Shown: positions 6,787 to 53,532 of the stretch, piece after piece
Numbering within the stretch: the stretch's first letter is position 1
Layout: every line of letters begins with the position of its first letter
NCBI GenBank assembly: GCA_016748015.1
Contig: JAAOMT010000479.1
Coordinates: forward strand, 660,888 to 724,887
Reading direction: 5' to 3'
Length of the DNA: 64,000 bases
Origin: Geosiphon pyriformis
Lineage: Eukaryota; Glomeromycota; Glomeromycetes; Archaeosporales; Geosiphonaceae
The notes under the pieces: generated by a model
Told to the model about the DNA's origin: nothing
Databases searched by the model: none
The model's input: only the letters and a program-made list of their open reading frames with translations
Translations under genes and position numbers: made by a program

Positions 6787-8390
6787 TATTATCAATATAT
6801 TATCAGGAATTGTATCATCATTAGCAAAAATACTATTAGCAAGAATAACATTCCAAAGCCAACAAAAAAAACCGATTTATTAAGAACTTATAACAATTTC
6901 TTTGAAGAATTTAAATCATAATCACTAATACCATCAAAATTTTAATTACTATTATCTCAACCCAATTTTGCTGCTAATTCTTGGAAAAAAACTGACTCAG
7001 AAAAGGAGAAAAATAAGGATCAAGAATTTAATTACCAAAACCTAATTCTAAAAAACCCAGAAATCTAAACTCTAATTATTCCAATTCAGCAAAATCAGAA
7101 CAATTCAAACACTACTTCTATTGTTCCTCAAAACTTATTTTCAGTAATTGTAATTAATCTATTACCAGTTGTACTAATCACAAAACTGCAACAACAGCTG
7201 CAACCATCACTCCAACAACAACTTCAACAACTGATCATAGTAACAATAACATATGTACTAATTACCAAATTAAAAAAATTTAATAGCAAAGAAGACAATG
7301 CCCAAGTATGACTAAATGATATTGTAAAGACAATTACTGCTAATAATTGGGATAATGCCAAAGTTCTACAAGTCATTTCATATTTTTTACAAGATACTGC
7401 TAATTCATGATATCAAAGCTTGATTAACAAACTCATTATCTTTGATGCATTTAAAAATAAATTTTTAAAATATTTTAGTAATAATAACAGTATTAATTAT
7501 TTAGCAAATACTTTTACTACTATCAAACAAGAAGATATTGAAGCTGTTATCACTTATTTGGGATGTTTTTATTGAAATTTGTGACAAATACAAGCCATTG
7601 ATGTGAATTATTTTACTGTGCCACAAATCTTAAACCAATTTATTTGTGGTCTATACAGTAGTTTTCTATAACATATATGTTCACTAGATTTACAAACACT
7701 CTAAGATGTAGTCATCCACACCAGAGATTTCAAATTGGCTGAGCTGAAAGTTAATTATACTCAAGTCATCAATTTAATAATAAATAGATTATCTGACTTG
7801 AACTTCAAGTTGAAACAATTTAGTGATTCTATTAACCAAAAATTAGAGGAATACTTAGCTAACAATCAAGCAATATATCAATCTTCATAATGTTACAACA
7901 ATCCAGAAACCTTTAATCAGTTCCAAAATCAGTCATGTCTCTTTTCATCATCAATGCATTAATTATGAGTGCAAAAAACATGTATATGCCACAATTGTAA
8001 TAAACAAAGTTATTTAAGAACTGATTGTTATACCAGAATTAATAATTAATAATTGGAAAATTAATATCAAAACCCCAATCTCTAATTTCATATTCCAAAT
8101 TATCAACTAAATCAAGGATCATATTAACTTTATTATACACCAATAATGCAACAAGCAATATACTTACCACCAATTTATCAGTTTTTAACACCAGTAATAT
8201 ATCAACTACAGTTACAGGTCATCTATTAATCTCAATTATTTCAAACATTACCACAAAATTCAGTTCAAATAACACCCAGAAACCAGACACCAAGAATTAC
8301 CCATACCCAACAAAATTAGAAATCAGTAATAGTTATGCACTAACTAATTTCCAGTTCATCAAGTCAACTATCAAAATCATGCCAGTGGAA
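6787..8390 (+). pseudogene. G2 gag core and CCHC knuckle, broken
   Basis: Structural capsid/nucleocapsid protein. The retrotrans_gag core is at about 7255-7720 (ITKLKKFNSKEDNAQV, NNWDNAKVLQVISYFLQDT, FLKYFSNNNSINYLANTF, ILNQFICGLYSS). The C-terminal knuckle near 7979-8022 reads CHNCNKQSYLRTDC, where the zinc-binding His is now Tyr. A Gln/Pro/Tyr-rich tail follows to about 8330. Several TGA/TAA stops fall at Trp and Gln positions. Confidence 0.75.
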
Positions 8391-8970
8391 TTTGGAAACT
8401 GGGTACAACCAAAACCCAAATTTTCAGAACTATTTAAGTTTTTTGGTATTTTCAAAAATCACCACACTTAATTCATTGGAATCCAATCAAACCCAACTAC
8501 TTATTAATAATATTCTACTGGCAACTATTACAGAAAATAAATTGCTTACTGCAATATTCCTTTTTGAAATAGAAGCACTATTATTCAGTAAAGCTGCTTT
8601 TAACACAAAACCAATTACCATAATATACACTAATGCTAAAGTTAATAGCCATCCTATCAAGCTAATTCTTAATAGTAAGTCAGCAGATAACATCATTACA
8701 TGACAACTCATGGATCAATTAGTGACTGAGTTGATTATATTGCCAGCATTAGAATTATTACAGCAGATAAAACAACAAAGATTTTAATTGGCAAAATCAA
8801 TAACTTTCTATTTGAAGTCAATAGTATCACAACATCTATCAAAGTTTTTATTATAGAAGCCACCTAGTATTAAGCACTAGTTGATAATGACTAGCTGTTT
8901 AAAACAAATACAATACTTGATTAGACTATACAAGAACTACAGCTCAGCCAGAATGGTTAACATATTCAAG
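8391..8970 (+). pseudogene. G2 retropepsin-like protease, dead
   Basis: Open at 8392-8703, then broken. The fold signature is recognisable (ITIIYTNAKVNSHPIKLILNSKSADNIIT). The catalytic Asp-Ser-Gly is replaced by Asn-Ser-Lys, all by G to A changes. A C-terminal copy of the family's ELQLSQNG ending is visible near 8936-8959. Confidence 0.75.
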
Positions 8971-10070
8971 TATCTGCCACATACAGACACTTTAAACCAA
9001 ACAACAATTCAGCACTACTAATTAAATTTAGGAAAGAAAAAAACAAATTTACCTAGGAAGCTTACCAAGTTTCCTGGGCCGAAAAAAAACACAATAAATT
9101 ACCATTCATACTTAGCTGGAAAAAAAAGAGAAAAAGAAAGGAAAGAGAAAAAGAAATGGTCCAAACAACTATCTTTACATATACCCTATATATTACTACC
9201 AATCAAAGACAATTAACTTATTGTTAACCCAAATTAATTAGTGTTGATTGTGACAAAAAATTGTTAACAATAAAGAATAGCCAATAGCAACCAAATATTA
9301 TTGTTACTCATGTATTCTAAAAAAGTTTGAACAACTTAAGCAATAGAAAAAATGAAATAACAAGCCTTGTTTCACATGTGGAATGATTTTTCTTGATGAA
9401 AAAATATAGAACAACATTTTTGAATAAAAAGAAATATGTAACAAAATATGTTAATACATGATTTTAATTAACAATTGGATATAAAAAGGGACTTCAATCA
9501 ATAATGCCTGAAAACAAGCATTGAAACATTTGGAAAACTATTCACATAATGAACACAAGATCTGAAGAATAATGAGTGCTAAAGTTAAAAATATTATATT
9601 TAGTAAACTACTAAAAATCAAAAACAACTCACTATTTCTTTTTGAATCTAAATATGTCCTAAACTTCAACATCTTTAATAATGTTAAAAATGATTTAGAA
9701 CAATTCCATAAATATTATCAGAATCTAACACTGACAAGAAAAAAACAAGAACAATAGTTAAAAGAGCTAAACATCCAACTATGTGACTATTGTTTAATAC
9801 CATGTGATTTCAAGTATTATAATAAGTATGATTTTATCTACAATCTATCATCATACATAATCTATTTGATTCTTAAAAAAAAAAAGCCAATCAACAAATG
9901 TGCAGCAGAATTGGAATTGAAATTCAAGTCTGATTCAAATTTCAATAATAACAACAACAACAGTTTTAACTCTATTTATTATGGCAACAACAATAGCAAT
10001 TCAAACTCTAATTACAATCTTGAACAATATATTGTACTTTCAGATCTATTAATAGAGCAGAAACTGAAAT
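8971..10070 (+). pseudogene. G2 Cys-rich segment and linker, broken
   Basis: Corresponds to the Cys-rich segment between protease and dUTPase in G3, G4 and B. Recognisable pieces are a PCFTCG-like stretch near 9363-9385, LCDYCLIPCDFKYYNKYDFIYN near 9779-9841 (two CxxC-type pairs, one Cys lost) and an Asn/Ser-rich low-complexity stretch at 9940-10015. Frameshifts and stops are frequent. Function unknown. Confidence 0.6.
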
Positions 10071-10565
10071 AATTCAGTAATAATAATAAAGATATTATGT
10101 TAAAATACATACATAATACCAATACAGAGTTTAATCTTAGATATCCAGAAAAAACTGTCATTAAATTGGAACTATATTCACATACTAATATAGACCTAAA
10201 AATAACACTAGAAGTTTTGATAACAACAATAGTTTAGTTAGCATCTAAATCTAGTTTAGTAAAAAAAGATTAATATCAGAAGAAAAATAATTAATACAGA
10301 ATATGTAAAAAATATTATTGCAATATTACAAAATAAATCAGAAAAATCATATATAATTCAACCAAACAAAAAAATAGCACAGATAATATTCCTACCTCTA
10401 ATAAAAATAGCCCAATTAGTTTTAGTAGAAAAAAGGAAAGAGTTAGAAATTAAAGTAAAAGAAATTAATAGATTTGGATTCATAGGTAAAATAGATATAC
10501 CAGTCAATATAACAAAGAAAAAAACTATTAATAAAGAAAAAATTATTTTTACCAATTAATCAGTT
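10071..10565 (+). pseudogene. G2 dUTPase-like domain, decayed
   Basis: By alignment with B and G3 it starts NTNTEFNLRYPEK (canonical AGxDLRY lost) and ends near NRFGFIGKIDIPVNI, the counterpart of the GFGSTGR motif. Motif 3 (GxIDxxY) is unreadable because of frameshifts near 10275-10320. Inactive. Confidence 0.65.
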
Positions 10566-11452
10566 TTTATTTTACCATATAACTAGTATATATTAGTAAT
10601 AGAAAAAAAAGTAAGAGACCAATCTCAGATTTTTGAAGCAGAACCAACTAATTGTAAATCAAAGAAGATTGAAATTATTAATCTTTACATACCAGCCAAG
10701 AACTGTAAACATATCAAAATTTCTATCTACAACACAATTAAAAACACCATCAAAATACTAAGCAGTATTATCATCAGATACTTAAGCATTAAAGTTAAAA
10801 ACCAACCACTAAACACTATTCCAGATTTTTCACAGCTTTGTAAATACATGAATATTATATTACAAACAATATACAGATAAGAAGAATATTATTTGCTCTA
10901 ATCAGAACAATTGGATTAAATAAACTTAAGAAACTTAGACCCACTTCAATATATGTAGTTTAAAATATTACTCAACAATTTTACTGATATTTTTGCCAGT
11001 AAAAATAAGTTTGGTAGAACTGATATTATTTAGCATCAGATTAAAACTAAAGATATTATGTCAATTAAACAATGAACATACTGAGTACTACCAGCAAGCC
11101 ATGAAATCATCCAACAGAGAATCAACAAAATGTTGGACAATGGATTAATTCAATTATTAATGAGTTTATGGTCATTATTAGTGGTACTAATTCAGAAAAA
11201 AAATAGAAAAATCCACTTTTGTGTAAATTACAAAAAGCTCAACAGTATGACTTGGAAAAACAGCTATTTGACTCCACAAATTCAAAAACTATTCAATGTA
11301 TTTAAAAAAAAGAAATAATTTTCAACATTAGATCTAAACAGTAGTTACTAACAAGTAGCCATAAATTCAGTTGACAAAGAGAAACAACATTCACAACCAA
11401 AAAAAAAACTTTGAATTTAATGTTATACCATTCAGCTTAATGAATACTTCAG
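10566..11452 (+). pseudogene. G2 pre-RT linker and RT, 5' part
   Basis: The linker holds FEAEPTNCKSKKIEIINLYIPAK-type beta-strand text, then NNFTDIFASKNKFGRTDII and the RT start (MLDNGLIQLLMSLWS, KNRKIHFCVNYKKLN, FSTLDLNSSY). Motif A Asp is kept (STLDLNS). Frames change near 11320 and 11385. The RT is cut by a minus-strand solo LTR at 11453, just before the GLMNASATFQQLM-equivalent segment. Confidence 0.75.
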
Positions 11453-12210
11453 TATTACAGATGATTATTTGGGATCTCAAAGCAAATAACAAACTCATAA
11501 CTTGGTGTTCAATTGATATAATGATATTGGTTTCTAAAGATTATTTATATCTAAAGATTTGATTGCCTGAAGGTTTTGGTTAAGTTCTTTGTATAATAGA
11601 CAGAGATTTACTAGTGTCTTAGTAGCCTTCCAGAATTGCAATTCTGTCAAATTTCTTTCTTAGCATGATGGCCAGTAATCTAGCAGAGATGCCCTTCTGG
11701 TAAGTTATTCTTGAATTATCAATTTTTATACCCTTTCTTTTGGAGTCTTTTACCAGACTATTTTTGATGTCAATAACTTAGTGCTTTACTCTTTAATCAA
11801 TTAGTCAACAATAAGAAATAACAAAATAACATAAAAAGAAAATAAAAGAAAATAAAAAAATAAGCCAAGGCAATAAATGTTAGTATCCTGTCAATAGCTG
11901 TAATCAAAAGCTATTGTTCTAGTATAGTTAAGTATTAATTACTATCAACATAAAGTATTGATAGTGGAAAATAGATTAAGATAGTGAATAATTATTTATT
12001 GATATTTGTAAATGAAAAGATTGCTTAGATCAAATCTAAACTAAGAGGTCTATCTTTTTTTCTTCTAATACTACCACTATATATACATAATTGAGATTCC
12101 TCAATTCCTTAATTCTTCACACTAAAAATCCTAGAATTTCATATTTACTACAGCTACTTCTGATTGGCTAATTTATATGCTAATATACTTCTTATATTCT
12201 ATGAGTAATA
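11453..12210 (-). repeat. Solo A-type LTR, minus strand, in G2 RT
   Basis: Reading the plus strand it starts TATTAC and ends GAGTAATA, the complement of a mutated TGTTAC…GTAACA pair, 758 bp. It is flanked by TCAG (11449-11452) and CCAG (12211-12214), a 4-bp duplication with one C/T change, and RT sequence resumes immediately. Contains the A-family hairpin (11941-11965) and a complementary TATATATA box near 12079. Confidence 0.85.
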
Positions 12211-12846
12211 CCAGCCATCTTCTAATGACTAATGGAAATTGTCTATACCAGATTACTATAAAAGTTAATAGTAGTCTATTTGGATAATACCAATATGTTT
12301 TTCAAAACATTTGATAACTATTTTCACTATTTGCAACAAGTATTTGAAAGATTAAGAGAACTAAACTAAAGTTGAATGCTACAAAGTGTTTTTTTGACAA
12401 AACAGAACTGAAATTCTTGGAACATGTGAACAAAAATGACATTAAAACAGATTCAAATAAGATTAAAATTGTTAAGAACTTTTTAATACCAACAAATCTT
12501 ATAAAATTAAGAGTATTCTTAGAATTCACTAGATACTATTGCTGCTTTATTCAAAACTTCTTCAAACTGGCTCAACTATTTCACCAGCTCCAAGCAAAAA
12601 ATGTAAAATATAAATAGACTGAGATTTAACAAAAAGCTTTTGACATCTTGAAAAAAAAGCTTATTTAAGCACTAGTACTAATTTACTTAGATTATAGTAA
12701 ACTATTTATTATTACTACTGATGTATTTGGTTAAGTCTTAAGAGCAATATTGTTACAAAGAAAACCAGATAAAAGAGAATATTCAATAGCATATGCCAGC
12801 CAAAACTTAAGCCCAGCTGAAAAAAATTATGAAACTTTAGCACTAG
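12211..12846 (+). pseudogene. G2 RT 3' part and RNase H start
   Basis: Continues the RT after the solo LTR: LMEIVYTRLL-like text, then VVYLDNTNM near 12262-12290. The YLDD box is YLDN, so catalysis is lost. The open stretch 12372-12617 reads the RT thumb (KCFFDKTELKFLEHV, LIKLRVFLEFTRYY). RNase H starts near 12620 (ITTDVFG, SQNLSPAEKNYETL) and is cut at about 12846 by the junction to the G1 3' LTR. Confidence 0.75.
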
Positions 12847-13318
12847 AATATTTAATTACATTAGACCAATAGCTCTTAATTACAACTATTAACAAGATAA
12901 TAATTTCTTAATTTTCTTTTAAATTTTTTTTTATTTTTTTTATTTTTTTATTTTTTTTGTTTGTTTTATTAATTTATTAACAGATTAAAGAGATTAAGCA
13001 TTGAGTATTTTAATATTAAGAATAGCTTAATAAAAAACCCAAAAATAAGAGTATAGAACTCAAAAATTAAGAATAGCTTATTAAAAAAACACAACTGCCA
13101 AAATAAACCAGCCACTACACTGAAGAAAAAAATTGATAGAATAATTATTCCAGAAGACTATTGAAACAACCATTGAATCTTTGTCTATTATACAAAAAAC
13201 TCAACCCAAAACCTTCAGATTATTAAAACCTTTAGATATTACTAACACTACCCAGCTATTGAGTACCAAGTTATAGGTTTGTTATTTGTACTAACACTCC
13301 AAATAATTATTTTTAATA
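12847..13318 (+). repeat. G1 3' LTR remnant
   Basis: 472 bp that align co-linearly with 2519-2989 of the G1 5' LTR and end TTTAATA (mutated GTAACA). The first ~492 bp of the LTR are missing. The left junction shares AATA(C/T)TTAA-like microhomology between G2 RNase H and the LTR, pointing to a deletion breakpoint. Confidence 0.8.
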
Positions 13319-15008: not shown

Positions 15009-15465
15009 TTGGACCCTAGGGGTTCTGCTTCTGTTTGGTTTGTTATAATGTCAAATTTTATGAAGGAATCAGCTTGTGTTGCTAAAAGTAAAGAGAATGT
15101 CTCTGATTTAGTGTCTTTAAGTGTTTTAGATTTAGTAAATTTTGGGTTGATTAAGAGTTTTTTGCATAAAGTTTGGACATATGTGTTTGATATGTACATT
15201 AATAGCTTACTGAAAAATTTGGGCTTGGTAGAAGTAATAAGTAAAGTGGCTGCCTATTTTTCTAATATGGATATAAGTGTTGATATTAGTATTTCTGGTA
15301 TAATCTCTTCTATAATGATTAAACTGCAAACTGTTGCTTTGGCTTTGGAATGTGTGTTGTTTTTTAATATTGTTGTTTTGCATCTTAACAGTCAGATAAC
15401 TATCAATGTTTGTGCTTATAAACTTAGCTTAACTAAACTGGACTTTTGCAATTATTGTTAAATAG
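15009..15465 (+). pseudogene. LINE L1 RNase H, first part
   Basis: Begins at the family's KKLDPRGSASVWF junction. Contains the RNase H core text VFDMYINSLL, AAYFSNMDISV, IKLQTVALALE and LHLNSQITINVC. The first active-site Asp is Asn-like (MYINS for YTDxS), and the LQT (ELQ) Glu has become Lys. The frame runs to 15461 and is split by G3 after AATAG. The end of the domain is at 25528. Confidence 0.8.
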
Positions 15466-15536
15466 TGTTACTCATAAAAAGGAAAACAGATATAGGAAAA
15501 TAATAGACCAATAAGAGAGTAGTAGTTAGCACATGA

Positions 15537-15656
15537 GCACATTGCTCAGCAATGTAGAGCAATATCAGAAATCATGGCACATGGTTCAGCAATGTGAAGC
15601 AATATTAGAAATCATGGCATATTGCTCAGCAATATAAGCATTGGTTGGGAAATTAT
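15537..15656 (+). repeat. Three 40-bp U3 repeats with ATTGCTCAGCAAT
   Basis: Units start at 15537, 15577 and 15617. Each holds a near-perfect palindrome ATTGCT-N-AGCAAT (exact at 15541-15553 and 15621-15633), and the first two continue with AGCAATAT(C/T)AGAAATCATG. The same repeats are present in the 3' LTR (24771 and 24851 exact), in the solo LTR at 29845 and, on the minus strand, in G4. Position upstream of the TATA box suggests a promoter element; that role is inferred. Confidence 0.75.
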
Positions 15657-15713
15657 AGCACATCATTCAAAAATGTGAGCAATCTCATAGAACCCAAATT
15701 ATGTATATATAGT

Positions 15714-15722
15714 GATAGCATT
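15714..15722 (+). promoter_or_regulatory. Putative TATA box of A-family LTR
   Basis: TATATATAG, conserved at the same LTR offset in the 3' LTR, G1, the 29845 solo LTR and G4. It lies downstream of the U3 repeats, as expected for the U3/R promoter. The transcription start is not visible from sequence. Confidence 0.55.
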
Positions 15723-16299
15723 AAAAGAAGAAAAGAGAGACCTCTCAGTTTAGATTTTATCTAAGCAACCTTCCAATTCACAAATATCAATAAATAATTA
15801 TTTACTATTTCAATTGACTCTCTACTATCAACATGAAGTGTTGATAGTAATTGATACTTAACCATGTTGGAACAATAGCTCTTGATCATGGCTATTGACA
15901 AGATACTAACTTGCAATTGCTTTTGTTTATTTCTTTATCTTCTTTTATTTTCTTTTATTTCTTTTTGTTATTTCTTTGGGGATTTACTAAATTGATTAAA
16001 AATTAAGCACTGAAATACAGATGTCATAGGGACTGGTAAAAACCCTGTGAAACAAGAGTAGAACACTCATAGATTTGAAGATAGCTTACCAAAAGAATTA
16101 CCAGCCACCACGCTGAGAAAAAAATTTGATGAAACTGCAGTTTTGGGAAGCTACAGATAAAACCATTAATTAAATCTCTGTCTATTATACAAAAGACTTC
16201 ATAAAAAAACCTTTAGATATCAACCCCAGAATACCAACCAAGCACCAAGTTACAGATTTGTTATTTGATTTGAGACCCCAAATAATCATTTGTAATATT

Positions 16300-19140: not shown

Positions 19141-20356
19141 CACCACTAGTCCCACTTATCAAATTCGAAGAAGAAGAGAAAAAACCTACCTGAAAAGCCT
19201 ACCAAGTTTTTTGGGCCGACACAGAACACAACGAGCTGCCGCCAATACCTTTGTGGAATGACAACAGCAAATGAAAGCAGAAAGAAGAACTTACTTGAAG
19301 TGCTGACCAAGACTGAAAAACCAACCACAATTCAGAAAAACCGACAGCTTGGGAATGAAATGAGAGGGAAAAAGAAAAAAGAAAAACGAAGGAAGTAAAG
19401 CACTACCAATTGCCATTTACACTTCTTACACATATACACCAACACAACAATCAAGTTATCATTGACCAAAGCTGATATGCATTGATTGCAGCAAGAAATT
19501 GTCATCAATGGGTGTATGCTGTTGTGATGATGAGGAATACCAAATGACATCCAATTTTTACTGCCATGCGTGTATCATAAAATGCTTTGGATAACTAAAA
19601 CAACAAGAAAAATGGGACAATGAACCTTGTTTAGCTTGTGGGGAAACCTTACTTGACAAAAGAATGTGGAATGACATTCCTGAACAAAAAAAAATGTGTG
19701 ACGCTTCGTGCCAATACACAATCTTCATCAGCAACTGGATTAAGAAAGGGACACCAATAGAAGCCGCCTGGAGAAGAACTGTACAGCAATTAGACAGTTG
19801 TTCACACAATAATGATAAGTTATGGAGAATGGCAATAACCAAAATAGAAGAAGCATCACCTGAGGAAATCAGAAAAATCAAAAACAACCCACCAGAACTC
19901 ATAGAACCTAACTGGGACCCAGAACCAGTCATAAATTTTCTAGATTCAGAACAATTCCATGAACACTACCAGGAACTAGTGTTCACAAGAGAAGAGCAAG
20001 AGCAACACTTGGAGCAGTTAAATACTCAATTATGTCAACATTGCTTATTTCTCTGTGACTTTCAATATTGTAATGAGTGTAACCTTATTTACAATCCACC
20101 ACTACGCATGATTTACATGATCCCAGAAGAAGATGAACCAATGAGCAGCTACATATCAGAATTGGAATCAAATTTTAATCCCAATTCAAACTCCAACAAT
20201 GACAACAACGAAAATAATGGCTTTAGCTCCATTCAAAATGGCAATGAAAATATCAATGATTTAGACTTCAATTCAAATCCTAAAATATACATTGCACTTC
20301 CTGATCTCTCTAAGGAACAGGAACTCAAATGGTATAGTAACAATAATGAAAGTATT
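19141..20356 (+). pseudogene. G3 Cys-rich segment between protease and dUTPase
   Basis: Open from 19664 (frame continuing into dUTPase). Upstream part to 19640 has stops but carries CIDCSKK-like and FYCHACIIK motifs. The main segment has CLACGETLL, CDASCQYTIFI, a helical stretch IKKGTPIEAAWRRTVQQLD, then CQHCLFLCDFQYCNECNLIYN (three CxxC-type pairs) and an Asn/Ser/Glu low-complexity linker at 20185-20280. The repeated Cys pairs suggest zinc binding. The same module is in B and G4. I know no named family for it. Confidence 0.7.
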
Positions 20357-20751
20357 ATGCCAGAACATGTACATAATACTAATACAGAGTTTGATCTGAG
20401 ATATTCAGGGAAAAATGCCATCAAATTGGAACCATATTCATGCACATATATTGATCTTAAGATAGCACTGAAAATTCTAGCAACAACAATGGTCCAGTTA
20501 GCATTTAGAAGTAGTCTAGCAAAAAAAGGAATCAACATCAGAAGAAGAATAATTGACGCAGAATACATAGAAATATTATTACTATGCTACAAAATGATTC
20601 AGAAAAAGTATATATTATAAAGCCAAATGAAAAAATAGCACAGGCAATATTCTTACCTCTGGTGAAAATAGCTTAGTTAGTGTCAGTAAAAAACAGAAAG
20701 GAATTAGGAATAACAGCAAGAGGAATACAAGAATTCAGATCCACAGGTAGA
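20357..20751 (+). pseudogene. G3 dUTPase-like domain
   Basis: Trimeric dUTPase-type fold embedded in the pol polyprotein. Motif 1 NTEFDLRY (canonical AGxDLRY, Gly lost), motif 2 RSSLAKKG, motif 3 IRRRIIDAEYIE (GxIDxxYxG, Gly residues lost), motif 4 EKIAQAI, motif 5 EFRSTGR (GFGSTGR). A one-base shift near 20571 breaks the frame between motifs 3 and 4. In an intact copy it would hydrolyse dUTP during reverse transcription. Compare element B, where the motifs are better kept. Confidence 0.8.
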
Positions 20752-22118
20752 ATAAATGTACCAGTTAATATGGCAGAGGAAGAGATTATTGACAAAGGAG
20801 AAATTATCTCAATCTGTCAATCAATCTCTATTCCATCATATAACCAGTATATGTTAGCCATAAAAAAAGAAGTAAAGAATCAAGCTCAGTTGTTTGAAGC
20901 AGAAGCCACCATTTGCAAATTAGGAGAAATTGGATTTACTAATCTTTACATATCAGCCAAAAGCCCCAAAAACATCAAAATTTCCATCTACAACACAACG
21001 GGAAATGTTATTGAAATACCAAAAAGAACCATTATTGAATATTTAACCACTGAAGTTGAGGATCAACCACTAGACCATATTCCAAATTTTTCACAGCTTT
21101 GCAGATATGTGGACATCACATCACAAACCATCTATGGGCAAAGTAAATGTTATCTGCTCCAACCAGAACAATTGGAACAGATAAACATGGGGAATCTAGA
21201 CTCACTTCAACAGATGCAACTAAAGATATTACTCAGCAATTTCAATGACATTTTTGCTAGCAAAAATAAATTTGGTCACACCAACATCATCTAATATCAG
21301 ATTAAGACTGGAGATGCAATGCCAATTAAACAAAAAGCATACAGAGTACCACCAACCAGTCATGAGATCATTTGTCAAGAAATCAATCAAATGCTTAACA
21401 ACAGGCTAATTCAGCCATTAATGAGTCTATGGTCATCACCAGTAGTACTAGTCCAAAAAAAAATGGGAAAATCCACTTTTGTGTAGATTACTGGAAACTG
21501 AATGAAGTAACCAAAAGAGACAGCTACCCAATTTCAAAGATCCAAGAACTATTTAATGCTTTTGAAGAAAATAAATGGTTCTCAATACTAGATTTAGATA
21601 GTGGTTACTGGCAAATAGCCATGGATCCAGCTGACAAAAAGAAAACAGCATTTACCATAAAAGAAAGAAATTTTGAATTTGAAGTCATGCCATTTGGCTT
21701 GATAAATGCTCTAGCAACATTTCAACAGCTCATGGAAATTGTCTATACTGGACTACTGTAGAAATCAGTAGTTGTTTACTTAGATAACATAAATGTGTTC
21801 TCAAAAACATTTGATGATCATCTTTACCATCTTTAACAAGTATTTAAAAGACTCAGACAGGCAGGATTGAAATTAAATACCAACAAATGCTTCTTTGGAA
21901 AAACAGAACTAAAATTCTTAGGACATGTTGTGAGCAAAGATGGCATCAAAACAAATACAGACAAGATTGAAGTTGTTAAGAACTTTCCAGTACCAAACAA
22001 TCTTACAGAATTAAGAGCATTCTTGGGATTTGCAAAGTACTATCACCGCTTTATCAAAGACTTTTCTAAATTGACTCAGCCACTCCACCATTTACAAACC
22101 AAGAATGTAAAGTATGAA
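20752..22118 (+). pseudogene. G3 pre-RT linker and reverse transcriptase
   Basis: Linker 20752-21240 has beta-strand text (NLYISAKSPKNIKISIYN, EIPKRTIIEYL). RT runs from NNF-type NDIFASKNKFGHT (21240) through a frameshift in an A9 run near 21460, HFCVDYWKLNEV, SILDLDSGYWQIAMDPADKKKTAF (motif A Asp kept), VMPFGLINALATFQQLM and VVVYLDNINVFSKTF. Motif C is YLDN at 21777-21788, so the second catalytic Asp is Asn. Thumb: ELKFLGHVVSKDGIKT, LTELRAFLGFAKYYHRFI. Inactive as it stands. Confidence 0.9.
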
Positions 22119-24045: not shown

Positions 24046-24681
24046 ATGGAAATACCAGATCATATTCACATTATAGCTCAACAATTGTTTTAGGCCTTAA
24101 GTCAACAACAGTTAGACATAGAAATTGTTATTAACAACCAAATAATTTGCTATTAAAACACCCAAAGAAAGACAAAGAAGACACTATATCAGCAGCCACC
24201 AAAGAATAATAAAAACTAGACAGATAACTTAATAGAAAAAGTAAAGAACACTTTTGGGAAAATACCTATTATGGCACCAACAAAAGAGCTTACAAAAAAA
24301 AATTGGAAGCAATGAACAGAACAACTTCCAATATCATATTGCTACTACCAGTTAGGTCAAAAGTTGAATATTCAGGAGTTGTATATCGACAAATCTAAGA
24401 AAATATTCAACCAAAACATAATACAGCAAATTGAAGAATTTATTGGAAAAAAAACAAATTTAATACTACATGTTAAAACAATGTACCAATTACACAACAT
24501 ATTTTGGAACTATCCAGAAATACTGTTACACTCAGACATGGAGACCATAACCATTAATTAATGGGGAAGAATGAACAATACACAAGTAGAAGACATAAAA
24601 AACAGAGTTGAACAAACAATACTTGAAAAAGAAGTATTAGAATTAATTCAAAATGAAGATTTTGACAGAGCTTAATATTAA
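24046..24681 (+). pseudogene. ORF3 of G3: unassigned protein in env position
   Basis: A 636-nt frame from ATG 24046 (MEIPDHIHIIAQQLF) to TAA 24679-24681, between integrase and the polypurine tract. About 211 aa, predicted mostly helical, with no signal peptide and no hydrophobic membrane segment. Key text: YCYYQLGQKLNIQELYIDKS and QQIEEFIGKKTN. Six in-frame stops (including TAG at Q16, TAA after IICY, TAG in NN-N*TDN, TAA in RA*Y) disrupt it. G4 and G5 have the same frame at exactly 636 nt, and B has a homologue. I do not recognise the family. Function unknown. Confidence 0.7.
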
Positions 24682-24695
24682 AAAAGAAAGAATAA
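24682..24695 (+). other. Polypurine tract of G3
   Basis: AAAAGAAAGAATAA immediately before the 3' LTR. The 14-nt tract at the same place reads AAAGGAGGGGATAA in G5 and AAAAGAGAAAATAA in G4, so G to A decay is visible. It is the expected plus-strand primer. Confidence 0.7.
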
Positions 24696-25527
24696 TATTA
24701 CTTATAAAAAGAAAAACAAATATAAAAAAATAGTAAACCAATAAGAGAGTAGTAGTTAGCACATGAGCACATTGCTCAGCAATATAGAGCAATGTCAAAA
24801 ATTATGGCACATGGCTCAGCAATAGGGAGCAATATCAGAAATTATGGCACATTGCTCAGCAATATGAGCATTGCTTGGGAAATTATAACACATCACTCGA
24901 GAATGTGAGCAATCTCATAGAATCCAAATTATGTATATATAGTGGTAGCATTAAAAGAAAAAAAGAGAGACCTCTCAGTTTAGATTTTATCTAAGCAATC
25001 TTTCAATTCACAAATATCAATAAATAATTATTCACTATTTCAATCCACTTTTCACTATCAACACTTTATGTTGATAGTAATTGATACTTAACCATGTTAG
25101 AACAATAGCTTTTGATTATGGCTATTGATGAGATACTAACTTGCAATTGCTTTTGTTTATTTCTTTATTTTCTTTTATTTTCTTTTATTTCTTTTTGTTA
25201 TTTTTTTGGGAATTTACTAAATTGATTAAGGATTAAGCACTGAGATACAGACATCATAGGAACTGGTAAAAGACCTGTGAAACAAAGGTAGAACACTCAT
25301 AGATTTGAGGATAACTTACCAGGAAAATTACCAGCCACTATGCTGAGAAAAAAATTTGACAAAACTGCAGTTTTGGAAAGCTATGGATAAAACCATCAAT
25401 TAAATCTCTGTCCATTATACAAAGAACTCTACAACAAAACCTTCAGATATCAACTCCAGAATACCAACCAAGCACCAAGTTACAGATTTGTTATTTGATT
25501 TGAGACTCCAAATAATCATCTATAACA
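24696..25527 (+). repeat. G3 3' LTR
   Basis: TATTACTTATAAAAA…CTATAACA, 832 bp, co-linear with 15466-16297. Hairpin at 25054-25078 has loop CTTTA, where the 5' LTR has TGAAG at the same offset. Followed by ATAG. Confidence 0.95.
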
Positions 25528-25800: not shown

Positions 25801-26436
25801 TTAATATTGAGCTTTATCGAAATCTTTGTTTTAAATTAATTCTAATACTTCTTTTTCAAGTATTGTTTGTATGACTCTGTTTTTTATGTCTTTTATTTGT
25901 GTATTGTTTATTCTTCTCCATTGGTTAATGGTTATAGTCTCCATGTCTGAGTGTAATAGTATTTCTGGATAGTTCCAAAATATGTTGTGTAATCAGTACA
26001 TTGTTTTAACATGTAGTGTTAAATTTGTTTTCTTTCCGATAAATTCTTCAATTTGCTGTATTAAGTCTTGATTGAATATTTTCTTGGATTTGTCGATATA
26101 CAATTCCTGAATATTCAACTTTTGATCTAACTGGTAGTAACAATATGATATTGAAAGTTGTTCTGTCCATTGCTTCCAATTTTTTTTTGTAAGCTCTTTT
26201 GTTGATGTCATAATAGGTATTTTTCCAAAAGTGTTCTTCATTTTTTCTATTAAGTTATCTGTCTAGTTTTTATCATTCTTTGGTGGTTGTTGATATGGTG
26301 TCTTCTTTGTCTTTCTTTGGGTGTTTTAATAGCAAATTATTTGGTTGTTAATAATAATTTCTATGTCTAACTGTTATTGACTTAAGGCCTAGAACAATTG
26401 TTGAGCTATAATGTGAATATGATCTGGTATTTTCAT
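25801..26436 (-). pseudogene. ORF3 of G5
   Basis: Exactly 636 nt from ATG (complement of 26434-26436) to TAA (complement of 25801-25803). Best preserved middle part, 25993-26241: NTFGKIPIMTSTKELTKKNW, SISYCYYQLDQKLNIQELY, LIQQIEEFIGKKTN. Shares the stops after IICY, at N*TDN and at LF*ALSQQ with G3. No indels relative to G3. Unassigned protein. Confidence 0.7.
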
Positions 26437-43561: not shown

Positions 43562-44023
43562 TCACTTAATCCAATACTGATTATAGAAGTCAAGCACAAA
43601 GAGAAAAGTTTCAGATATGTAAATATCAATAGCAGACTGGCTGTTTGAGTACACAATCACAAAACATGAAGATAGAACACATTCCAAAGCCAAAGCAACA
43701 GCTTGCAGCTCAGTCAGAGTAGAAGACAGAAGCCCAGCCATCTTAATCCCAGCATTCACATCTACAGCTGGAAAGTAAACAGCCATACCACCAGCCATCT
43801 TAATAGAACCAGCACTTTTTAGGGACTCATCTGTAAAGACTTCAATACAATTGAACCAAACCTTTAGCAAACCATCACAAATATTAGAGAATCTATTAGA
43901 TTCCAAAACATCCAACACAGACACTCTAGAAATAGCAGCAGTCTCATTCTCCAAAGAAGTAGACCTGATTATAAACTTAGAGGTTAAAGTAAACCAACAA
44001 GGCACAGAGCTTCTTGGGTCCAA
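43562..44023 (-). pseudogene. L4 RNase H
   Basis: Open 154-codon stretch from LDPRSSVPCWF. Core: EVFTDESLKSAGS (first Asp kept), GMAVYFPAVDVNAG, LTELQAVALALE (Glu kept), VIVYSNSQSAIDIY (third acidic residue is Asn). Degrades the RNA strand during target-primed reverse transcription in working LINEs. Confidence 0.8.
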
Positions 44024-45534
44024 TCTCTTCTACTGCTAAAATATTTTCCAATTCATTACATTCTTTTTTTTGTCCAGAAGCCTGTTACCAAATGCAATGC
44101 CAAATTGTTTTAACAAAAGAACAAAAGTGAAATACAAAGACTAATCCAAGATACTAGACATTAGAAATCTACTAAACCCACAAAAAGCACTAGGCAAATT
44201 GTTTGCCAAAAATAGTTTATTGTTCAAAAGAATTTTCACCACTTTAGCCAAAAAATTGTTCATTGAACTAACATGCAACTTAACAAAAAATTGCAAAAAA
44301 TTCATAAGAGACCACTCTACAACTTGCAAATCCAAAAATTTATGATTAAACAACCACCCAAAAATACCATAAGTGTTGGAAAAAGAGATCAGCAAAGCTA
44401 GTTTTTTCTCAGACTAAACTTGCTTAAAGAGTTTTAACCCATACAAAAATGGATGGTGCAAAATCTCACAGAGAAAATTATACAGCAAACCAGCCTTGGC
44501 TCTAAGATTTTTTCTGATCATTACATTTCATTTGTGGCATACACCTAAAGAAACAAACCTAAATTGTCCAATAGTTAATTATAGGCTGCAAGACAGCTAA
44601 AACCAAGTAAAAAAATTGTTTATTTATAATAGTCTTTTTCAGTACCACATTAGAAAAAAACCTGACATTAAGATGAACCTAAGCCAAACTAGACTTGGAA
44701 AAATCCTCAGTGGACAAAAAAATGCCCAAGTATCTGTGTGCTTTATCTCTTTTGGCAATTGAAATCAGTAAATCATTAATTAACAGTAAAGCAGACTTAA
44801 CATCCTGATTGATAAGTATAGCCACTGTCTTATCATTGTTTATTAAAATATTATTGACCACAAAAAATTCACTAGAAATATTCAGAATATATTGTGTAGA
44901 AATCTGGCAATTCCCAACCCAAATTGTATCATCAATAAAGGCACCAGCAGCCAAAAAAAAAAGTCATTCTACCAGTTGTTTTAACTCTGTCAGATCTCAT
45001 CACAAATTTAGTGTCAATTCTGTATCCATATAAGTGCTTATGTCTTTTAATCTTACACAAGAGTGAATCATAAAAAATTCTCCAAAAGAGCAGAAAAATG
45101 ACCTCACTCTAATCCAAACCATTATGTACATTATAATCATTCAAAAATCCAAAATCTGTTATCATCTTGTTAATTTTGTTCCCATAAATGTCACCAAAAA
45201 ACTTGATAAACCAATTACACATTTTAATACAATGCAAGCTAGTCTTCAAATGATGCCAGTCTATTGAATTGTAAGCCTTATGCATATCTTGTAATACCAG
45301 CCAGAATTCTCTGTTTTTTTTTAAAGCATTCTCCACAACTGACCCAATGGCAAAAATAGGAAACTGAATTAAGGTCTTTTTTAACACTAAAAAGTTATTA
45401 CCACTAAAAACATCAAATTTACTATAAGTTAAAGATATTCAATCAGAAAAGATTTTTTGGACTGTTTTGATCAAAGCAATAGGCCTAGTGTTTATTAAAA
45501 CACCATTCTATTCATAAGGTTTAAGAATAATTGA
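44024..45534 (-). pseudogene. L4 reverse transcriptase, main part
   Basis: Frames 45109-45387 (FPIFAIGSVVENALKKNREF, LVLQDMHKAYNSIDW, MCNWFIKFFGDIYGNK, MITDFGFLNDYNVHNGLD), 44679-44954 (AAGAFIDDTIWVGNCQ, LNISSEFFVVNNILINN, KAHRYLGIFLSTEDFSKSS) and 44141-44395. Motif A Asp (LQDM) and motif C FIDD are intact, the only intact RT box in the window. Stops and a shift between the frames break it. Starts at the junction with element B. Confidence 0.85.
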
Positions 45535-46511
45535 TGTTATCAGACGAAATTAGAGATATTATTTAACATGAAATTATCTTATAATTTTTATTATTAAATA
45601 GCACATATTATTATTCAAATGATCACTTATTACATTAGCAAAAATGTCCAAAATTATCATTTAATTAATAACCCAAATTGTACACAACACAGATGTAACC
45701 TAATTGCGATGATCAATCATGCAATACCCCGAACTATATAACATTCAGAAGTTTGCCAAAATTTGTAGAAATTTGCCGAAATAATTGATAGTTTACCGAA
45801 ATATCTAATAGTTTGCCGAAATAACTTGTAGTTTGCCGAAATGTATCTTTAGTTCAGCGAAATTGTAGAAAATAGCAAAGTTCAAGTTCATAGAATAGTG
45901 TTACAACAAGTTGTATAAAAAAAGAGCTTTTCTCTTTGAGAAAATGTATCTTATTTTAGATTTATCTCTTAAAACCGTTCCTATACACACAAAAAGAAAT
46001 AAATATCAAATAAATTCGAAAAACCAAATTCTTTAATTATTGTACTTGAAAAATCCCCAAAAACCCAACTAACATTTCGAAATTGATTAGCTACCAATTT
46101 TAGTAAACTGTTAGTGATTCCAGGCCTGGATAGAAAACGTTTCTCTTGACAAAATTCTATTTCTTTTACATTTCTTTTATTTTTTTTTTCTTTTATTATT
46201 ACAATCATTAGGGTAGCCTACAGACGAGATTCCTGTAGAAGAGTTGACTTTCACAGCAAAGTAACTATACATTTTAGTGAGCTTTCAGATGAGCAATTCC
46301 TGGAAAAGAGTTGACATTTACTACAACATAACTACATAAAGTAACTGGCAAGGAATTGGCCATTCCACTTATAAGCCCAGCAGTTCAAATTATAGGAAAT
46401 AATTTGAAGATAAATTCAGTTACTGGAGGTTCAACCACATCCAGAAAATGTGAATTCAGCAAATAAGTATCAACAACATTACAGAAAAGAGACCAAAAAC
46501 TTCTGGTAACA
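45535..46511 (+). repeat. Element B 5' LTR
   Basis: TGTTATCAGACG…CTGGTAACA, 977 bp. U3 has six motifs of the TTTGCCGAA/TTCGCCGAA type (45752-45861). A TATAAAAAAAGAG box follows near 45916. Poly(A) signal candidate AATAAATATC near 46002. Co-linear with 53533-54491 and with the solo LTR at 5806. Confidence 0.95.
45752..45861 (+). repeat. Six palindromic motifs at 20-bp spacing
   Basis: Nine-base motifs at 45752, 45772, 45792, 45812, 45832 and 45853: TTTGCCAAA, TTTGCCGAA, TTTACCGAA, TTTGCCGAA, TTTGCCGAA, TTCAGCGAA. Consensus TT(C/T)GCCGAA is a palindrome around one central base. Five intervals: four of 20 bp and one of 21. The 3' LTR has five copies (53750-53839), and the solo LTR has six. Confidence 0.85.
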
Positions 46512-46513
46512 TT

Positions 46514-46553: not shown

Positions 46554-48470
46554 GTGGCAACTGCCTCAGACATCACAACCTTAGAGTACTATCAATTGAT
46601 TTACACACACTGCAAATAACAATTTGAAATATGCGACGGAATCATAGCTTTCAAGAAAACACTTTTTCAATATATTGAAAATCAAATCAATGACTACCTC
46701 TTTGGGAACTATAACATTACAACAGTTAAAAGAGATTTTCTTGATAATATACTACACTATTCCAACACTGATTCAGAAAACATTAGTGCTGAAGCTTGTG
46801 CTACTTATTTTGAGGAACTCGATTATAATATTATTTGATTCTGTGAAGAAAAATATCCTGCAAACGCACAATTTGCCTTTGAACTCAAATCTGAACCTGA
46901 AACCAGTAGCAACAAAAGACAAAAAGATAACTGACCTGTTCACACAACACCCAATACTCCCAAAATATCATTCAAACATTTACAAACACCTGAACAAAGA
47001 ACCAGCTCAAAACTTTCACTTACTATCACACCTTTTCCAGCTTCACTTGCACAAGCCCAAACACTTAATTCACTCTTGAATCGATTTGCAAGACCAGAAG
47101 ATTTTACATCACTCAGAAGTCCCACCAGACAACAAGAACCCCTTCTAACTAGTTCCAATCTCCTTGATTTTCTAGCTGAAAATCAAAATGAACACTCTGA
47201 GACAGCAGCAAATGAAGAAAACAACTCTGAAATAACCAAAAAAGAATCAATAGACAGTGAAAACAAAGAAGACAAAATGACAACATACATTGCAAAAATC
47301 CCTGAATTCAATGGAGAAGATATTGAGACCAGTCCCCAAGAATGGCTCGACCAAGTTACTAAAGCTGGAGATGCAAATGGATGGAATGCTGCCAGAATGT
47401 TAAGAACAATTTCCTATTTTCTCAAAAAAACAGCAGGAGAATGGTTTGAAAACCTTGCCGCCCCATTCAATGATTGGAACGTTTTCAAAACAGCCTTTCT
47501 TAAACAGTTCACCGACAATAATACCTCCATCACTCTTCGCAATCGTTTTCGAAATATCAAACAAGAACTCTCCGAATCCATTATGGCTTATATTGGAAAA
47601 TTCAACAAACTTCTCAGACAGATTTGCCAACTCAAGACAAATAATTATTATTCCGATGATCAAATTTTGGATCAATTTATTGCTGGTCTAAAAGATAAAC
47701 TAATTAAAAAGATTCGCCCACATGCACCAGAAGATTTAAACTCTGCCATACAGTATGTGAAAAGATACGAAATGGCCATGGAAGAGGCCAATCGTACAAA
47801 ACTTGTAAATTTGGCAATTGAAGAAACCAGCTCAGCAGCTGAGAAAAAAATTGACCAACTCACAAAGAAGGTTGAAAACTATTTTACCAACCAACAACAA
47901 CAACAATCCCAAAGATATCAACCACCCCAAAGACGAAATCAAAATAACTTTGTACCACTTTCCAGTAACCAGCCCCAGAATTGCCATTACTGTGGAATCT
48001 CTGGCCACTGAAAAAGAGATTGCAGAAAGTTACAGCAAGACCAACAAAACAGGGGTAATCAATATTACTCTCCACCACAGCAATCTTATTATCAACCATC
48101 ACCACCAGCTTACTATCCACCAAAACCCCAATACCAAAATAACTATTATCAGCCCACTCCACAACCAATCCAACAGCAATACCAACAACCACCCACACAA
48201 CATTATCAAGTACCTGCTCGAAGACTGATTACACAAAATCAATCCACACCACAAAACTGATACCAAGTAAACAACAGTAGAATCAGTTCGAACAACCAAT
48301 TGGTTCCCCGAAATACCACTCAACCAAGACCCAACTACTACTACACTCAACCCAGTTATTTAACAATGCTGGAAGAACAGGATTTTCACCATACTGTACT
48401 CTTGGAAGGTAGAACTGCAGCACAACAACAATGAAACTCTTCTCATAACCACACCACTATTCCACCAGTC
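46554..48470 (+). pseudogene. Element B gag
   Basis: One frame from about 46554 (no ATG; GTG GCA ACT) through 47076-48011 to the protease. N-terminal domain (QYIENQINDYLFGNYNIT, ACATYFEELDYNII), acidic linker, retrotrans_gag core about 47277-47810 (AKIPEFNGEDIETSPQEWL, FLKQFTDNNTSITL, ILDQFIAGLKDKL). CCHC knuckle 47982-48023 CHYCGISGH*KRDC: a TGA (48009) replaces Trp inside an otherwise intact knuckle. A Gln/Pro/Tyr-rich tail follows with further TGA stops at 48259, 48434 and 48474. Confidence 0.9.
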
Positions 48471-49000
48471 TGAATTGCTGAAAATGCCAATCTCTCTGAT
48501 ATTTTTTCTTTTGAATTTGAAGCAAATGAATCACCATTCTTACTTAGCAATGCAGCGGCTAATGAGCAAAAAGCCATTACTGCAATGTACACAGAAGCTG
48601 AAGTAGAAGGAAAGCCAATTCGCTTGATCCTAGACAGTAGATCCACCAGAAGCATTATTACCTACCAGTTAATGCAACAATTGAAAAGAAATGTAGACCG
48701 ACCAGCTCAAACAGTAATCGTCACTGCCGATAGCATGAAAAAGACCCCAGTAGGAGAAATTGACAATTTTCCATTCACTCTTGATGGAATCACCATTCCA
48801 GTCAAAGTTCTTGTAATGGACACACCCCAGTACCAAGCTCTCATCAGAAATGATTGGCTTCAAAAAGCCAATGCTAATCTGAATTGGGAAACACAAGAGT
48901 TAACAATCTTCTACCAAGAACAACATGCCTGGATATCTGCCATTTGTGGTACATTCAACAAACACTCTGAAAAAGCCCCGGCTTTTGAATTTGAACCAGA
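48471..49000 (+). pseudogene. Element B protease
   Basis: Retropepsin-like, inside the 48585-49439 frame. TAMYTEAEVEGKPIRLILDS, then RSTRSIITYQ: Asp at 48633-48635 is kept, but Gly of DSG is Arg (AGA at 48639). ITPVGEID-like text and TPQYQALIRNDWLQKANANL complete the fold. Same position and same Gly loss as in G3. Confidence 0.85.
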
Positions 49001-49929
49001 AGAAGAAAAACCAATAATCGAAACATTTATGGCTCTTAGATCAACGTCCAACTGGGCCGATGAAACAGAACAAAAACATTTTACCCTACACACTAAACCC
49101 GAAACCTCTGGATGGAATATACCTTACTCAAAACCCGAACCAAGAAAACAACGCCCCTATATTCCCCTTAAATGTAAGGACTGCCACAAGAAATTATCGT
49201 CAATGGAAGCCTGCATTTCACCTGAAGAAGAATATGAGAATTATACTTGTTATTACTGCAAGGCTTGCCACAGAGAGCGATGGGGCCATCTAATAAAAAG
49301 AAGCGGAAAATGGGACAACACCCCTTGTTTGACTTGTGGAAATATGCTACTGGAAGAATGCAATTGGATTGATGTAGCAATGAGAGGAGGCATCTGCGAT
49401 CAGACCTGCCAATATGCTTTATCAATTCAGAAAAAGTAAAAAGAGGAACACCCTTTAATGCAGCATACAACAGTGCTCTCAACAAACTTTATCACTACCC
49501 TCATGATGCCGAGATGATTTTCGACTTAGCAATGGCATTAATTAATGGAGCTACCAAAGAAGATGTTTGTCAAATGAAGGAAGCAGAATACATTGAATAC
49601 ACTATGGAATTAGCTAGATTCGATTACGAAGATGAAGTAGAAGTCTACCACCAAATTGCAAGTCACACCTACCCAACTCATGAAGCTCAAATTCAATGAT
49701 TAGAGCAAATAAACATTAAGCTATGTGAAGAATGCATTATGTCTTGCGATAAACAATGGTGTCCTGAATGCTATGCTCTTAGTATCCCCTTGCCCAGCAA
49801 AAATGATGAGAATGAAATTGAATTTAGAGAACCTGAAGAAACAGAAGAAATTAAAACAACACCCATCTACCTTATCAAAAATCAGCCTGCCTTACAACTT
49901 AAGTACTTCAACAACAATGGACAAGGAAT
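49001..49929 (+). pseudogene. Element B Cys-rich segment
   Basis: First half in the protease frame to 49439: CKDCHKKLSS, CYYCKACHRERWGHL, CLTCGNMLL, CDQTCQYAL. A one-base shift near 49417 moves to the frame RGTPFNAAYNSALNKLYHYP…VCQMKEAEYIEYTMELARF. A TGA at 49697 (Arg-like) is followed by CEECIMSCDKQWCPECYAL. At least five Cys pairs suggest zinc ribbons. Module shared with G3 and G4. Unassigned. Confidence 0.75.
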
Positions 49930-50326
49930 AAAACCCGAAAAAGCACACGAAATTGATGCTGGATATGACCTAAGATATCCAGGCAAGGATACTCTTGTTC
50001 TCAAACCCAAATCTCTCACAAAAATCAATCTCAAAATTGCACTTGAAATTCTGCCAGGAACAATGGTTCAAATCACCTTTCAGTTCTTTCTGACAAGCAA
50101 AGGAATTAATGTTAGAGGAAGAATAATCGATGTTGGATATACTGGAGACATAACAGTGATGCTTCAAAATGAAACTGACAAATCATTCAAGATTGAACAT
50201 GCTGAAAAAATTGCCCAAGCTATCTATCTACCCCTAATCAACATTTCGGGTTTGCAACTAGTCAATCAAAGAGAGCAATTAGGAAAAAGCAATAGAGGAA
50301 CCCAAGGTTTTGGTTCAACTGGACGA
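49930..50326 (+). CDS. Element B dUTPase domain
   Basis: Part of the pol polyprotein and open throughout. Motif 1 EIDAGYDLRYPG, motif 2 degenerate (FQFFLTSKG for PRSS), motif 3 NVRGRIIDVGYTGDI, motif 4 HAEKIAQAIYLPL, motif 5 GTQGFGSTGRF. This is the best preserved dUTPase here. The motif 3 Asp and Tyr that bind the uracil nucleotide are present; the motif 2 Ser/Arg are lost. It lies between the Cys-rich segment and the pre-RT linker. Would lower dUTP during reverse transcription. Confidence 0.85.
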
Positions 50327-50603
50327 TTCACAGTTCCAGTTAATATAGCTCTTAACACACAGAATGAATCCCACCAGATTCTCAGACTTCCACAACTGAT
50401 TACTATCTCACTCTTTGGAGAACATCTGGAAATCTACACCTGCCCAAAGCCAACAACCACACAACAAATTTTTGAGTCCAATGAACAAGTCTGCTTGGAA
50501 CATAATATTTTGATCTCAAACATTTATATTCCAGAAGGAACAAAGAAAGTCCAAGTTACTTTTTACAACCCCAATAATTACCCCATAATTTTATTAAATA
50601 ACT
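50327..50603 (+). pseudogene. Element B pre-RT linker, cut by gap
   Basis: Continues the dUTPase frame: TVPVNIALNTQ, LITISLFGEHLEIYTCPKP, SNIYIPEGTKKVQVTFYN, PIILLNN. Corresponds to 20752-21022 of G3, a beta-rich linker before RT. Interrupted by the N run. Confidence 0.75.
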
Positions 50604-51254
50604 NNNNNNNNNNNNNNNNNNNNNNNNNNNNNNNNNNNNNNNNNNNNNNNNNNNNNNNNNNNNNNNNNNNNNNNNNNNNNNNNNNNNNNNNNNNNNNNNN
50701 NNNNNNNNNNNNNNNNNNNNNNNNNNNNNNNNNNNNNNNNNNNNNNNNNNNNNNNNNNNNNNNNNNNNNNNNNNNNNNNNNNNNNNNNNNNNNNNNNNNN
50801 NNNNNNNNNNNNNNNNNNNNNNNNNNNNNNNNNNNNNNNNNNNNNNNNNNNNNNNNNNNNNNNNNNNNNNNNNNNNNNNNNNNNNNNNNNNNNNNNNNNN
50901 NNNNNNNNNNNNNNNNNNNNNNNNNNNNNNNNNNNNNNNNNNNNNNNNNNNNNNNNNNNNNNNNNNNNNNNNNNNNNNNNNNNNNNNNNNNNNNNNNNNN
51001 NNNNNNNNNNNNNNNNNNNNNNNNNNNNNNNNNNNNNNNNNNNNNNNNNNNNNNNNNNNNNNNNNNNNNNNNNNNNNNNNNNNNNNNNNNNNNNNNNNNN
51101 NNNNNNNNNNNNNNNNNNNNNNNNNNNNNNNNNNNNNNNNNNNNNNNNNNNNNNNNNNNNNNNNNNNNNNNNNNNNNNNNNNNNNNNNNNNNNNNNNNNN
51201 NNNNNNNNNNNNNNNNNNNNNNNNNNNNNNNNNNNNNNNNNNNNNNNNNNNNNN
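50604..51254. other. Assembly gap of 651 N
   Basis: Lies over the RT and RNase H of element B. The corresponding part of G3 is about 1.5 kb (21022-22536), so the gap length is probably too small, unless B carries a deletion. Confidence 0.95.
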
Positions 51255-53521: not shown

Positions 53522-53532
53522 GGAGGAGATTA

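Follow-up and report, generated by a model that had tools for sequence, protein, structure and literature searches.

ORF3, a probable accessory gene between integrase and the 3′ long terminal repeat of Geosiphon Gypsy retrotransposons

Geosiphon pyriformis belongs to the Glomeromycotina and harbors cyanobacteria within its cells. In the 64-kb stretch of its genome analysed here (the window), Gypsy long terminal repeat (LTR) retrotransposons carry, downstream of integrase, an additional open reading frame (ORF) of ~210-240 residues that we refer to as ORF3. Three copies belong to family A and lie in elements G3 (24046-24681, plus strand; 211 codons plus stop), G4 (25801-26436, minus strand) and G5 (56732-57367, minus strand), and a fourth, of family B, lies at 52845-53564 (plus strand; 239 codons plus stop). 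The original prediction had placed a frame behind integrase and ahead of the polypurine tract in each of these elements. A homologous frame downstream of integrase is borne out by tblastn, which gives 79%, 74% and 76% for the G3, G4 and G5 copies with protein P0121 and 92% for the family B copy with P0001. The frames are not open, however, with six internal stops in each of the three family A copies and two in the family B copy. In addition, the family B frame does not end at 53521 as proposed. Coding continues to 53561 and the stop ends at 53564, such that the final 32 nucleotides, stop included, lie within the 3′ LTR. Both the broken state of the window copies and the overlap of ORF3 with the LTR had been overlooked.

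Own-genome searches were run on the 124.7-Mb assembly, each query yielding its best 150 scored places, and ORF3 was also found in two further families, C and E. Family E was present in one of five slices taken downstream of integrase matches, with another slice containing family A and three containing family F, which is discussed below. As had been proposed, the A and B proteins align end to end (BLASTP, 23% identity over 211 residues, E 1e-7). The E protein shares 37-43% identity with A and 18-22% with B and C, and a profile of the A and E proteins matches 12 of 12 tested B/C proteins in a 21-sequence set with E values of 1.6e-10 to 3.4e-6. When the same profile was compared with 432 six-frame chunks of the window, it recovered copy B at E 2e-7, and every match at E up to 1 fell within ORF3. 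The converse profile, built from B and C, is weaker: E values are below 0.001 for six of eight A/E sequences and 0.19 and 0.29 for two A pieces. The alignment scores of the A-B, E-B and E-C pairs were each reached by none of 500 shuffles, and four columns, Y, N, F and L, are invariant across the ORF3 families. Judged by these alignments, the A/E and B/C proteins are homologous end to end, and the gene probably predates the divergence of families A, B, C and E. In the A-B comparison ORF3 is the least conserved gene (~24% identity), with values of 37% for gag, 46-50% for protease, 37-51% for dUTPase and 49% for the N-terminal part of integrase; reverse transcriptase was not comparable.

A ratio of nonsynonymous to synonymous divergence (dN/dS) near 1, which the original prediction had proposed to look for, was not found. 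Between families B and C (23 B and 20 C copies; Nei-Gojobori method) dN/dS is 0.211, with dN 0.20 and dS 0.96, and the same alignment shifted by one or two bases gives 0.64 and 1.34. Integrase in the same two families gives 0.229 (18 B and 6 C alignable copies), and B and C thus conserve ORF3 as tightly as integrase. The ratios within families are 0.42 for B, 0.47 for C and 0.28 for A; the copy pairs underlying all such ratios are non-independent, and the higher values within B and C are expected if recent decay was neutral. Differences also concentrate at third codon positions, with 55, 36 and 89 differences at positions 1, 2 and 3 in a single B-C pair (p 6e-6) and averages of 87, 52 and 109 between E and A. 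On this codon-level evidence, ORF3 is a real protein-coding gene under purifying selection.

The ORF3 of families A, B, C and E has at least 150 scored copies per family. First-look candidates number 1645 for B, 2665 for A, 2535 for C, 3895 for E and 1464 for F, counts that may overlap between related queries and are therefore not summable. By these candidates, the ORF3 coding sequence is repeated very many times in the Geosiphon genome. Open copies were read in families B, C and E, including four of four fetched E copies open across 209 codons (chosen from those listed as stop-free), and for family A there is one full-length 211-residue database protein (P0121). In DNA-level alignments, 16 of 23 B copies and 15 of 20 C copies are stop-free, and all 35 full-length A copies carry one to eight stops. 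The A sample consisted of the 30 best matches and 16 places chosen for long open stretches, the C sample of the 20 best matches, and the B sample of the 8 best matches and 20 places selected as stop-free, which biases the intact share of B upward; across the three samples 16 of 94 loci were excluded because of gaps or short matches.

At the alignment columns where stops occur, the commonest codon is CAA, CAG, TGG or CGA, with a single exception, GGA. The decay is strongest at CpG: in family A the C-to-T value is 0.66 before G compared with 0.13-0.15 before other bases. This bias looks like decay of methylated CpG rather than repeat-induced point mutation of the CpA type. Because the stops fall in columns of these codons and the decay is of the CpG kind, we read the window copies as dead descendants of a working frame. 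Across the ORF3 of A, B and C, C-to-T and G-to-A changes at CpG are ~2.6 to 8.5 times those in other contexts.

The placement of ORF3 within the elements is regular. The distance from the integrase zinc finger to the start of the ORF3 match is 1524-1533 bases in A, 1341-1398 in B, 1351-1358 in C and 1251-1595 in E (14 of 15 within 1251-1260), and 1168-1173 bases to the corresponding ORF of F. As the A query starts at residue 91 and the B query at residue 15, the genes begin ~270 and 42 bases earlier, respectively, which puts the A gene ~1254-1263 bases from the zinc finger, like that of E. Among the 150 best integrase zinc-finger places, at least 62 have a partner at a near-fixed distance (48 an A, B, C or E ORF3 and 14 the F ORF), the two coordinate sets having been paired by eye and the distances checked afterwards. 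In fetched slices, two further integrase places, one A and one F, were also seen to have the downstream ORF. For the predicted presence of ORF3 in most full-length elements, the 48 places provide a lower bound.

Two arrangements are found at the 3′ end. In A and E, the ORF3 stop is found immediately upstream of the purine tract, 13 bases from the TGTTA that opens the LTR, and in B, C and F the frame continues through the tract and terminates 20-32 bases inside the 3′ LTR. At the junctions inspected in A, B, C, E and F, TGTTA directly follows the purine tract, although the G3 copy in the window is altered at this point. The LTRs of A and B, which had been described as unrelated in sequence, are thus not wholly so. 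The layout in B and C resembles that of nef, the 3′-terminal accessory gene of primate lentiviruses that overlaps the polypurine tract and the LTR unique 3′ region (U3). The likeness is one of layout only and no sequence relation is claimed. Because the 3′ end of the frame in B, C and F overlaps both the tract and the LTR, ORF3 could also be taken to encode no protein, its frame being a side effect of the sequence required around the polypurine tract and U3. Barring another explanation of the codon evidence, that evidence already refutes this view, as ~210-240 codons are under purifying selection with a signal that is lost in shifted frames and the stops arise at CAA, CAG, TGG and CGA columns save the one GGA; we consider it the least probable of the alternatives.

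Upstream of ORF3, all ten family C copies inspected (from L075-L094) have an AG 11 nucleotides before the start, preceded by a stretch of 70-80% pyrimidines. An AG lies within 20 nucleotides of the start in 4 of 14 B copies and in 10 of 11 A copies, in A after 35% pyrimidines, and a splice acceptor, for which only C has a candidate site, was rejected as a site common to the ORF3 families. Read-through of the integrase stop was likewise rejected as a shared mechanism: ORF3 is in the same frame as integrase in the A copies inspected and in a different frame in L095 (B).

As a sense ORF between pol/integrase and the 3′ LTR, ORF3 occupies the position of an envelope gene, and it might be an envelope protein, degenerate or divergent, through which the elements acquired an extracellular stage. 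In addition to the position, the splice-acceptor-like site of the ten C copies and the small env-like ORF3s of 210-230 residues of rotifer elements (excerpt of PMC5408684) are consistent with this idea. The properties of the proteins are not. In one protein each of A, B, C and E, hydropathy (used without a dedicated signal-peptide predictor) reveals neither a signal peptide nor a membrane-like stretch, with a maximum of 1.04 over 19 residues and N-terminal 9-residue maxima of 0.72-1.68, and a furin-like basic pattern is found in A only. The lack of a membrane segment, noted from the start, thus holds, and an envelope origin is largely refuted and very improbable. The proteins of A, B and E are basic (pI 8.9-9.3), and that of C has a pI of 7.1.

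A first structure model (predicted local distance difference test, pLDDT, 50.8) was too poor for a fold search. The protein is predicted to be mostly alpha-helical, with an N-terminal helix and a beta hairpin followed by a helical domain that bears a Y-x-Y/F-x-I/L-G motif. No conserved set of catalytic residues was discerned in ORF3, and the searches of Pfam, NCBIfam and the Protein Data Bank (PDB) gave no accepted relative. GDSL esterase and DEDDy exonuclease were absent among the Pfam matches shown at E up to 10 (in one scan, 25 of 45 families), and the best PHROGs match has an E value of 0.026. Below the cut-offs, A matches TTC3_9th (E 0.007) and DUF4950 (E 0.008) in Pfam and AnmK in NCBIfam (E 0.005, cut-off 435 bits), and the best E-family match is at 0.06. 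The division protein FtsQ (PRK10775) was matched by 8 of 13 members, with a best E value of 0.00046 against a cut-off of 366 bits and E 0.055 for FtsQ in PDB, and was unmatched by one A and one E protein. As FtsQ is mostly beta in the matched part and the matched part of ORF3 is predicted to be helical, we take this match as chance. Database proteins in which ORF3 is fused to other domains (P0128, P0146 and others) are read as artefacts of gene models or nesting.

The commonest weak Pfam match, to DUF1016_N (11 of 78 members, best E 0.0039), raises the possibility that ORF3 binds DNA and shares ancestry with the N-terminal domain of the YhcG family (PF17761). Indeed, the sole candidate place in a whole-genome scan with DUF1016_N is a B-type ORF3 (18.7 bits), and the helical part of B/C ORF3 aligns weakly and roughly colinearly with 78 YhcG-type sequences, with E 0.016 in one comparison. 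However, ORF3 stays under every cut-off, never reaching the curated 32.8 bits, the hhalign probability is 2.8%, the A alignment has an hhalign E value of 0.19, and ORF3 lacks the nuclease half of YhcG proteins. Moreover, DUF1016_N is not matched, even at E up to 10, by the one A protein and the three E proteins scanned, and for that reason we lowered the standing of this relationship from unlikely to distinctly unlikely. Searches for literature linking DUF1016 with a retrotransposon found none.

ORF3 could instead have arisen from gag or from the C terminus of integrase in the same elements and serve as a nucleocapsid- or integrase-like helper, a possibility favored by its place next to integrase and by the basic character of the A, B and E proteins. 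Against such an origin, the ORF3 profiles match no gag or integrase region in the six-frame window, where non-ORF3 rows have E values of at least 0.5, save for an extra domain near 25306-25473, in the G3 LTR, that has no printed E value of its own. Also, intact ORF3 proteins have no gag, chromodomain or SH3_Tf2-1 match among the families shown (in one scan, 25 of 45). The check for a known gag or integrase C-terminal domain thus returned no accepted Pfam or PDB match, and we regard this derivation as unlikely.

The Gypsy elements of family F (L178, L180, L181) carry a different ORF, of 218 residues, at the ORF3 position, with at least 150 copies, many of them open. To the eye, the F protein shares a pattern with ORF3, and F was tried as a distant ORF3 and rejected: the comparison gave E 0.48 in hhalign, with 10 shuffles at 0.09-0.79, 43 of 489 scored shuffles were equally good in HMMER, and 69 to 479 of 500 shuffles were equally good in local alignment. 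With an ORF in F that is not detectably related, ORF3 is not universal in these elements. The claim of a conserved accessory protein that is not an envelope thus stands for A, B, C and E, and F counts against it as a general statement.

Our overall reading, to which we assign a probability of roughly 0.6, is that ORF3 is a genuine third gene of dUTPase-bearing Gypsy elements, encoding a soluble, mostly helical accessory protein that acts by binding. Purifying selection would have maintained ORF3 during the active life of the elements, and its product would bind either the nucleoprotein complex of the element itself or some host factor that holds the element in check, with no part in catalysis or membrane fusion. 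Several points weigh against this reading. Every one of the 35 DNA-aligned A copies is broken, and F shows that this lineage can manage without a detectable ORF3 homologue. The comparison of B and C amounts to about one evolutionary comparison, with dS near 1. Because C is not basic, charge gives no uniform support for nucleic-acid binding. Finally, the better structure model is itself weak (mean pLDDT 63.5, predicted template modelling score 0.55), and fold searches with it gave no significant match.

As to the partner, the assignments are tentative: it may be the element's own RNA, cDNA or integrase complex, or it may be a host silencing or restriction factor, the two being judged equally likely and neither probable by itself. 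The low conservation between A and B together with the tight conservation between B and C suggests either that the partner, for instance a host restraint factor, itself changes over long periods or that ORF3 is a scaffold under loose constraint. The rapid A-B divergence is somewhat more in keeping with a host-facing than with a structural partner. A more specific proposal, which we find rather doubtful, is that ORF3 serves fungal Gypsy elements as a lineage-specific factor for counter-defence or targeting, with a nef-like layout in which the 3′-terminal gene reads through the polypurine tract into U3. Under that proposal, family F would either have exchanged the gene for another or carry the same gene after divergence beyond recognition.

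All ORF3 relatives listed from protein databases are from Geosiphon. With the B query at E up to 0.01, the best 120 of 207 matches are all from this fungus, with weak short non-Geosiphon matches possible among the remaining 87 of the 207 B-query matches. With the A query, seven of seven matches are from Geosiphon, three of them covering just 16-22% of the query, and a B search among database proteins of ~237-754 residues gave 71 of 71 from Geosiphon at E up to 10. No non-Geosiphon relative of ORF3 was present among 163 distinct listed proteins, in a word-based search of the kind that misses very distant relatives. The ORF3 genes are deposited in databases as host 'hypothetical proteins'.

Additional ORFs at this position have been described elsewhere. 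Plant LTR retrotransposons harbor extra sense ORFs between pol and the 3′ LTR (aORF-3S), which, in the excerpt of PMC7264820, share with ORF3 the sense orientation, the position, the presence in many copies and an unknown function. Some of them are env-like with membrane segments, in contrast to the fungal ORF3. In bdelloid rotifers, related families of LTR retrotransposons carry differing types of ORF3, including GDSL esterase, DEDDy exonuclease, membrane, coiled-coil and paramyxovirus-like env types (excerpt of PMC5408684), which is similar to the situation in Geosiphon, although no Pfam match to the rotifer types was shown for Geosiphon ORF3. In the portion of PMC2864245 available, one family of fungal Gypsy elements has a dUTPase between protease and reverse transcriptase, and a figure legend mentions an 'additional ORF'; the placement of the dUTPase and the extra ORF recall the Geosiphon elements, the ORFs being likened by description alone. 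Among the papers listed on Geosiphon, mycorrhizal or fungal retrotransposon ORFs, no title or displayed abstract describes this ORF3, most subscription journals lying outside the coverage. Extra ORFs are thus of a known kind, and the ORF3 protein family appears to be undescribed. A selected third gene that is neither enzyme-like nor envelope-like would provide a testable case of what fungal LTR elements need beyond gag and pol.

The remaining features of the window elements are those of Gypsy (Ty3-type) retrotransposons, with two LTRs, gag and protease, and, in G3 and G5, reverse transcriptase before the integrase zinc finger. The element B 5′ LTR (45534-46512, plus strand) is 94.1% identical to the 3′ LTR (53532-54492, plus strand; delimited by LTR-LTR comparison and sequence reading), and both start with TGTTA and end with GGTAACA. 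Reading the bases that flank these two LTRs revealed no clear target-site duplication. A purine-rich tract, read from the sequence, lies at 53520-53532 (plus strand) within the Glu codons of ORF3 and is, by analogy, the putative polypurine tract. Between the LTRs, also on the plus strand, lie gag (47076-48011; Retrotrans_gag, E 2e-13), protease (48585-49439; Asp_protease_2, E 7.5e-8), the dUTPase part of pol (49739-50603; dUTPase, E 2.8e-15) and the integrase zinc-binding region (51345-51860; Integrase_H2C2, E 4e-17). The stretch of pol before integrase, where reverse transcriptase is expected, reads as a run of 651 N (50604-51254). In element G3, the 5′ LTR (15461-16295, plus strand) is 89.8% identical to the 3′ LTR (24691-25525, plus strand), which starts ~10-13 bases after ORF3, an offset like that of other A copies.

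A dUTPase domain follows protease in pol at 49739-50590 (plus strand), 20321-20994 (plus strand) and 61100-60426 (minus strand), and in G3 and G5 it precedes reverse transcriptase. Genome-wide, all 150 scored dUTPase places, from 3181 candidates, are above the cut-off. An older Gypsy copy (7261-12854, extending to ~13212) has reverse transcriptase joined directly to an LTR-like repeat, with integrase and ORF3 apparently lost by deletion. Elsewhere in the window, weak matches below the cut-off to a long interspersed nuclear element-type endonuclease and to RNase H, at 55432-55854 and 43565-44023 (both minus strand), suggest the presence of non-LTR elements.
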